A stretch of DNA of 24,172 nucleotides from a virus, in IMG/VR virus record IMGVR_UViG_3300038701_003109, positions 1 through 24,172 of that record; one strand, given 5' to 3'. Positions within the stretch are counted from its first letter, which is position 1. Each line of letters opens with the position of its first letter. Below are positions 1 through 3,282 of the stretch, piece after piece. The notes under the pieces were generated by a model. The model saw only the letters and a list, made by a program, of their open reading frames with translations. It searched no databases and had not been told where the DNA came from. The position numbers and the translations under genes were made by a program.

Positions 1-387
1 AGTCCGAGGACCGCCGCGCTGGCGACCTGCTCGCCAAACAGCAGCCGGGGGCGGCAGGCCCGGACCAGGCCTGCAAAATGGGGGGGGGGCGAGGTGTCGC
101 TCATCGTCACGTCCCTTTCCGGCGCCCGCTGCGCTGAACGGCTGGCACGGCGGCGAGCCGGTCCACAGGGGTTCGTCGTCCGCCACCCCGGCCAGCCGCA
201 GCGCGTAGCTCCAGCCGCCGATCCCGGCGAAGAAATGGCATTGCGTGAAGTCGCGCAGGTCGTCCGGCGCGACATCCAGGATGGACCGTTCGTCCACCTC
301 CCCATCCGCGATGTGGCCGCCGCGGATCAGCTCGCGCAGCCACGCGGCGGCCTTGGGGTCGAACTCGTTGTAGTAGGCCCCGCCCAT
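1..387 (-). CDS. C5-cytosine DNA methyltransferase, partial, frame broken at a C run
   Basis: This would methylate cytosine at C5 in phage or host DNA, most likely to protect phage DNA from host restriction. Reading from the ATG at 387, the protein shows the AdoMet-binding motif I (CHFFAGIGGWS, about residues 50-60) and the catalytic motif IV PCQPFSAAG with its cysteine near residue 76. Family conservation then jumps frame: after GKGRDDERHLAP the sequence matching the family (LVRACRPRLLFGEQVAS) lies in another frame. The switch falls at ten consecutive G on the plus strand (80-89, C on the coding strand). Nine C would restore one open frame to the window edge. The start overlaps the upstream stop as TGATG. 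The C-terminal target-recognition part lies outside the window. The identity is firm. Whether the shift is real, phase-variable or a sequencing error cannot be decided here. Confidence 0.88.
   Translation of the reverse strand, partial: MGGAYYNEFDPKAAAWLRELIRGGHIADGEVDERSILDVAPDDLRDFTQCHFFAGIGGWSYALRLAGVADDEPLWTGSPPCQPFSAAGAGKGRDDERHLAPPPFCRPGPGLPPPAAVWRAGRQRGGPRT
80..89. repeat. Homopolymer run of ten G/C inside the methyltransferase gene
   Basis: Ten consecutive G on the plus strand, read as C by the minus-strand gene. The run sits exactly where the methyltransferase changes reading frame. A run of this length is prone to polymerase slippage and to sequencing error. Confidence 0.95.
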
Positions 388-2001: not shown

Positions 2002-3282
2002 TCACTCCTTGATGGGGTCGAAAAACTGCGCGGCGGGGTTGACCGCCGGGCGGGAAGTGCTGTCGAGCCGCACCAGGTTCGTCCCGGTGACGGACGTGCT
2101 CGACAGCCCGGCAAGGGCCGACGGATCGCCCCCCGCCTTCTTGATCGCCTCGCGCACCTGCTTCGGCGTGCGGGGCTTGCCGGGCGTGAGGATCTTGTCC
2201 TCGGCCACGCCGGCCGCGCGGGCCGCGGCCAGTGCTTTGGCCGCGTCGGCGTCGCCGTTCCACGTCTCCCGGCCCGTCTTCTCCACGAGCCCGTAGCCGG
2301 TCGCCGGAGAACCGGCCTCCGCCATGCGGTGCTCGTGCGCGCGGACCTCCTTGACCCACCCGTCGATCATGTCGAGCAGGTCGAGGCGGCGGGCCCGCTC
2401 GTCCGCGTCGCCGCTGTTCGGCTTGACGGACGCACCGGGCGCGTCGGTGATCGGGTCAAAGAACAGTCCGACCTCGGCCTCCACCTTCATCCGCAGGGCC
2501 GGGCAGGTCGCCGCGGCGCCGCAGAAAGCGGAACGGCAATGCTCGCCCGGGCGCAGGAAGTCCCGCGCCCATTCCTCGAGCGCCACCTGCCGGTCGGGGC
2601 CGGGGTAGGCGTCGAGGGCGGCCTTGGCGGCGTGCATGGCCTCCAGCATCTGCCCCGCCCAGGAGATCAGGTCGGCGACGTGGAACGCCTCCGACCGGAT
2701 ACGGCCGTCCGGGTGCGGCGCGCGGGGCTGCACGATCGTGACGCGTACCGTTTCCGGCGAGACGCCCGGGTTCGCCAGCATCGCGCCGAGGGCGTAGGTC
2801 CGCAGTTGCGGGTTGCCCTTGGCCTCGACGACGACGCCGCGCCCGCCTTTCAGGTCCACGATCTCCAGCTCCCGGTCGCCCGGGAACCAGATCACCGCAT
2901 CGCCCGTGCCGCCCGCGTCGAACGGCGGGTCGAGAGCGGCCAGCGAGAACCGCTGCTCGATCCACAGCACGTTGGCGTCGGAGGCGGCGTATCGCTTGCG
3001 CACGTAGGAGATGAACTCCTGCGCGCAGTCGGCCATCTCGTCATCCACCTCGAAGCTGTACTGCTTGCCCTTGAGCCGCTGCCCGAGAAACCGATCCGCG
3101 TCGGAGCCGTCGGACAGGCACGCCTCGGCGATCTGGTGGGCGCACGTCCCCCAATCCGCCGCCTCGGAGGTTCGGTTCGGCAGATCCTTGGTCATCGCCA
3201 GCGCGCCGGGGCACGCGAAGTTGCGCTTCGACGCGCTGGCCGACCAGGTGGCGTGGTCCCGAGCGGAATGATCGGGGGTCAT
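2002..3282 (-). CDS. DUF2800 RecB/Cas4-like nuclease
   Basis: A 426-aa DUF2800 family protein, part of the PD-(D/E)XK nuclease superfamily. The visible catalytic set is H49 (in GTCAHQIAE), D128 (GTGDAVIW), D143 and K145 (EIVDLKGG), then Q159 and Y163 (QLRTYALG). Four cysteines, C24 near the N-terminus and C249, C254 and C260 after the core, are arranged like the iron-sulphur ligands of Cas4 and AddB. The expected role is trimming DNA ends for phage recombination or replication with the neighbouring SSB, helicase and RusA-like resolvase. The ATG at 3282 follows GGGAGG and overlaps the previous stop as ATGA. Nuclease activity and the cluster are inferred from residue pattern. Confidence 0.86.
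   Translation of the reverse strand: MTPDHSARDHATWSASASKRNFACPGALAMTKDLPNRTSEAADWGTCAHQIAEACLSDGSDADRFLGQRLKGKQYSFEVDDEMADCAQEFISYVRKRYAASDANVLWIEQRFSLAALDPPFDAGGTGDAVIWFPGDRELEIVDLKGGRGVVVEAKGNPQLRTYALGAMLANPGVSPETVRVTIVQPRAPHPDGRIRSEAFHVADLISWAGQMLEAMHAAKAALDAYPGPDRQVALEEWARDFLRPGEHCRSAFCGAAATCPALRMKVEAEVGLFFDPITDAPGASVKPNSGDADERARRLDLLDMIDGWVKEVRAHEHRMAEAGSPATGYGLVEKTGRETWNGDADAAKALAAARAAGVAEDKILTPGKPRTPKQVREAIKKAGGDPSALAGLSSTSVTGTNLVRLDSTSRPAVNPAAQFFDPIKE

Follow-up and report, generated by a model that had tools for sequence, protein, structure and literature searches.

A ten-cytosine run in a phage cytosine-5 methyltransferase gene is probably a length change private to one contig

The run of ten cytosines that interrupts a DNA methyltransferase gene at the edge of a metagenomic phage contig is probably a private change in an ordinary gene rather than an evolved switch, and would stem from an assembly or sequencing error so near the end of the contig or from a sporadic frameshift. 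The stretch of DNA analyzed here (the window) comprises 24,172 bases, is recorded in IMG/VR as a linear virus sequence and has a G+C content of 72%. The affected gene is an ordinary member of its family, a common phage enzyme, and its relatives among cultured phages and metagenomic contigs provide the main evidence on the original length of the run.

The methyltransferase gene at the contig edge

The features referred to below are as follows.

1 to 387, minus strand: 5' part of a phage C5-cytosine methyltransferase gene, truncated by the contig end (open reading frame, ATG at 387)
90 to 387, minus strand: in-frame part, with the N-terminal block, motif I and motif IV, ending in RHLA (translation)
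80 to 89, minus strand: run of ten C on the gene strand (ten G on the plus strand), four bases more than in relatives with the same flanks
3 to 80, minus strand: conserved continuation HFAGLVRACRPRLLFGEQVASAAVLG, which the assembled sequence places in a frame other than that of the start codon
387 to 617, minus strand: small open reading frame directly upstream of the methyltransferase, 76 amino acids
816 to 1091, minus strand: GapR-like DNA-binding protein (PF10073, E 3.6e-15)
2002 to 3282, minus strand: DUF2800/exonuclease-family gene (PF10926, E 1.7e-59; phrog_69 exonuclease, E 1.2e-84)

The minus-strand frame opened by the ATG at 387 runs out past the contig start, and motif VIII, the target-recognition region and motif X of the enzyme lie beyond the contig end. 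The first-pass annotation, made from the sequence alone, had called the gene a phage cytosine-5 methyltransferase, and this identification was borne out: the product of 1 to 387 matched PF00145 (24.4 bits, E 2.3e-5, above the curated cut-off) and, over residues 3-101, phrog_363 'DNA methyltransferase' (E 3.8e-40), and in tblastn it matched 225 cultured phage records. Motif I (FFAGIGGWS) and motif IV (PCQPFS) are both in frame 5' of the run, as that annotation had stated. The in-frame part, which shares at most 81% identity with its IMG/VR relatives, ends in DDERHLA, and the cytosine run then breaks the frame just before GEQV. The family sequence does resume in another frame directly after the run, where HFAGLVRACRPRLLFGEQVASAAVLG (26 codons) has 65-77% identity to the nine closest relatives. 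Residue conservation 3' of the tract is at the level of an intact gene. Motif VI (ENV; here GEQV) is thus encoded, but the assembled sequence places it out of frame; in every homologue it is in frame.

The run is the sole homopolymer longer than six in the window. About 0.2 runs of at least ten G or C are expected in such a window from its dinucleotide composition, so the run alone is unremarkable. What is notable is its position: it interrupts a conserved gene and is only 79 bp away from where the contig ends. The chance of a given place falling so near an end is about 0.007.

The DUF2800 gene served as a handle for finding syntenic relatives, and RusA, helicase, DUF2800 and methyltransferase genes follow in the same order in L082, L083 and L085. 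The small open reading frame at 387 to 617 had no Pfam or PHROG match, but L083 has a weakly similar sequence in the equivalent position. The phage-encoded GapR-like gene (816-1091) lies three genes upstream of the methyltransferase, and by eye the open reading frame at 8110-8352 of L082, in the corresponding place, looks similar to it.

Tract length among relatives

All ten cultured phages with the flanks CACCTCG and ATTTT, namely Paracoccus phage vB_PmaP_KLEP18-1 and nine Rhodobacter phages, carry six cytosines between them. The flanks of the window are identical to those of the ten phages on both sides and only the tract length differs, which means that the contig has four extra cytosines, not one. 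The same four-base surplus is seen in blastn alignments, in which 377 window bases pair with 373 of RcCWillis and 378 with 374 of KLEP18-1. The DNA (cytosine-5-)-methyltransferase of KLEP18-1 (OM654376, gp45) is 80.6% identical over residues 4-101, but has the six-cytosine tract and a complete reading frame of 273 codons. The DNA methylase genes of the Rhodobacter phages (RcCWillis, RcJoli, RcPescado, RcIroh and others), which match the window over positions 3-379, belong to the same family; they differ from it in having six cytosines in nine of the nine read and in being annotated as intact in all. In RcCWillis the methylase lies in another gene neighborhood, adjoining the terminase. The closest syntenic complete phage (L082, IMGVR_UViG_3300036944_000737, 49 kb) differs in having a tract of five cytosines (TCC CCC AAA) in an intact gene.

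The wider family gave the same picture. None of the 91 relatives examined (80 metagenomic and 11 cultured) has a tract of more than six cytosines, and its coding length is constant, with 20 residues between RHL and GEQV in each of them. The frame is continuous across the tract position in 80 of 80 IMG/VR homologues. Most relatives have TGG CCN or GCC CCN codons at the tract and read straight through them. A sequence search for relatives of known structure found only 3g7u, and its alignment is likewise ungapped here. In the window, the spacing would be 20 residues with six cytosines, 21 with nine and 22 with twelve. The earlier suggestion that nine cytosines would give one continuous gene is therefore correct as frame arithmetic, but six or twelve restore the frame equally, relatives with the same flanks carry six, and nine would add a residue that is absent from all homologues. 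We rejected nine as the default true length, since both the family spacing and the same-flank relatives point to six. When homologous phages were compared, as the first-pass annotation had proposed, the downstream frame was conserved in all of them; this argues that any loss of the intact gene is very recent, if the gene has been lost at all.

Phase variation, recoding and decay as alternatives

The first-pass annotation had offered phase variation as one explanation. Under this model, the tract slips during replication and the methyltransferase is on at six, nine or twelve cytosines and otherwise off. Ten cytosines are within the length range of slipped-strand tracts, the frame 3' of the tract is still conserved, and the tract is a long in-frame homopolymer whose length sets the frame, as in homopolymeric phase-variable genes. 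Homopolymeric tracts are known to switch bacterial methyltransferases; in Helicobacter pylori, a poly-G tract switches a type III methyltransferase (PMC12003011). The H. pylori poly-G genes resemble the present gene in that a long G/C homopolymer decides the frame, although there the tract belongs to a bacterial type III enzyme and is recognized as variable (PMC12003011), and here it stands in a single metagenomic contig. However, phase variation predicts that tracts of variable length recur among relatives or within the population, and no such recurrence was found in the 91 relatives examined, in which the tract is at most six cytosines long and constant in coding length. In addition, the on-states other than six would insert prolines unseen in the family.

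A second methyltransferase with at least eight cytosines at the tract was also sought and was found neither among the viral contigs nor among the bacterial matches listed. Exact-pattern searches for other copies of this phage across the tract, and for the 25 bases beside it, gave no match, a result of little weight since near-identical records may lie outside the set searched. In 2.9 million viral contigs, the pattern CGNCAYCTNN followed by eight or more cytosines occurred at 41 other places, and none of the 41 is a methyltransferase. A second pattern, eight cytosines followed by GEQV-type codons at the right distance, occurred at 17 viral places and in at least 118 bacterial-genome stretches; among the matches listed, none of the 97 viral or bacterial loci read is a methyltransferase. 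The evidence for this absence is strong but incomplete, as members with unusual codons could escape both patterns and records very close to the window may lie outside the set searched. Phase variation is therefore without comparative support and we consider it unlikely; from the sequences compared, a private length change appears far more likely. Should mixed tract lengths be found, the gene would be a rare phage-encoded methyltransferase under slipped-strand control.

Three contigs with ten, ten and nine cytosines after RHLAP (L097, L103 and L113) were considered as a parallel and rejected, as they are not methyltransferases. They are related viral contigs in which the tract is apparently not coding in that frame, and their poly-C may be a genuinely variable tract or a sequencing difference. 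A methyltransferase homologue in L056 (2236-3321, approximate) has a run of nine G in the variable middle of the gene, and its frame stays open to a normal end.

Transcriptional slippage had also been put forward; in a wider form of this model, either the ribosome or RNA polymerase would restore the frame on the cytosine run in some of the products. Successive CCC codons can favor +1 slippage, and a +1 shift from the ten-cytosine run would land in the GEQV frame. On the other hand, the relatives have no conserved slippery run at the site and read through it with varied codons. A conserved frameshift site is expected of programmed frameshifting (PMC3711429); here neither such a site nor a frame break at the tract was found in the homologues, which are in frame there and have no long tract. 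The comparison thus lends no support to recoding, which we regard as highly improbable.

It is also conceivable that the gene decayed long ago and that the cytosine run is one of several lesions. Frame breaks do occur further downstream in four of about 80 relatives (L010, L026, L046 and L053). The 387 bp in the window, however, contain no further lesion, and identity to the nearest relatives is similar on either side of the tract (for example 77% after it vs 73-74% before it; L034, L022). An old pseudogene is thus quite improbable.

Origin of the extra cytosines

With no recurring tract among relatives and no conserved slippery site, the reading that we prefer is a change in tract length confined to the present contig. 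The family's tract of six cytosines (GCC CCC CAT, Ala-Pro-His) would read as ten in this single contig, the extra cytosines coming either from an error at a poorly supported contig edge or from sporadic slippage that shifted the frame in the phage that was sequenced. As assembled, translation would exit the methyltransferase frame after motif IV and enter a frame that closes within about 20 codons in most relatives, so that a molecule of this kind would not yield the complete enzyme. The tract lengths here and in the relatives, the conserved spacing and the nearness of the contig end are observed directly; the cause of the extra cytosines and the loss of activity are inferred.

The two sources have roughly equal odds. 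The position near the end (about 0.7% chance) and the error-prone nature of homopolymers favor an edge artefact; reported homopolymer errors are mostly wrong lengths and rise with run length (PMC11140927). A sporadic frameshift is favored by the size of the change, as four added bases in a six-cytosine tract are a large change for a base-calling error. The real tract may also be longer than those of the relatives (nine or ten), which would leave room for an unstable tract. The decayed gene and the sequencing error, two further possibilities that had been raised at the outset, are together the likely answer. On either account the gene is an ordinary family member that was recently still intact. 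An odd homopolymer within about 80 bases of the end of a metagenomic contig, seen without reads, is no ground for claiming phase variation, and some caution is needed with similar cases.

A second conserved frame in the methyltransferase family

The second half of most methyltransferases in this widespread family appears, from sequence comparison, to be dual-coding, with the enzyme itself and another conserved protein in the +1 frame read from the same strand, and this may outweigh the finding on the tract. The region was defined downstream of GEQV in L002-L085 and L273-L275 (for example L082:9303-10079, L070:5338-6156 and L022:5335-5955); the window covers only its first edge (1-79, minus strand). 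After GEQV, the median open length is 216 codons in the +1 frame, 230 in the methyltransferase frame and 17 in the +2 frame. Conserved words (GSTLYxLTW, TPxGR, WPTP and others) are present in the +1 frame in 80 of 87, and the consensus of its product is GSTLYxLTWKxxxTPxGR...WPTP...ARLTASGExLTGSSAGM...LNPAHSRWLMGxPxEWDDCAxTAM.

Under synonymous-codon shuffling of 78 genes, which are related and thus do not give independent tests of stops or divergence, stops in the +1 frame numbered 0.86 observed vs 3.4 expected, and those in the +2 frame were not depleted (10.3 observed vs 9.3 expected). Pairwise divergence at fourfold sites of the methyltransferase frame was 0.65 in the N-terminal half and dropped to about 0.40 from the seventh codon past RHL; it was 0.29 ahead of both motif VIII and motif X, and 0.17 around DWLFC. 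From the N-terminal half to the motif VIII block, divergence per codon rose from 0.21 to 0.32 at position 1 and fell from 0.56 to 0.37 at position 3; this combination is expected if a second frame is coding, whereas recent recombination by itself would not account for it.

The +1 product matched phrog_31772 and phrog_1008, both labelled 'DNA methyltransferase', and nothing in Pfam; in tblastn it matched 199 phage records. In K1 phages, the annotation lists the +1 open reading frame as a 'putative Mte8-like protein' lying within the methylase gene, and no description of the +1-frame protein was found in open-access papers. The AlphaFold model of the product (mean pLDDT 61, pTM 0.27) is overall too weak to support a fold search, and its confident parts are limited to residues 1-60 and a short segment of the C-terminal region. 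A start codon lies at +58 relative to RHL in 75 of 90 members, and the TTG at this position is only a candidate start for the +1 frame. As phages N15, epsilon15 and the K1 phages carry the family, dual coding is testable.

The tract lies a short way upstream of the point at which dual coding begins in the family. It might be supposed that changes in tract length direct ribosomes leaving the common N-terminal catalytic half to one ending or the other, so that the enzyme would have switchable C-terminal halves in place of a plain on/off switch. Read from the methyltransferase start, however, the ten-cytosine run leads into the +2 frame and not the +1 frame, so that present evidence does not link the tract with dual coding. 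This third frame is uninformative, and the sequence itself bears no sign of switchable endings; the idea is very unlikely to be correct.

In the four relatives with a downstream frame break, the break exchanges the two conserved endings, and the WLMG ending sits in the methyltransferase frame in L010, L046 and L053. The break region holds a run of seven C in L026 and a run of seven G in L046.
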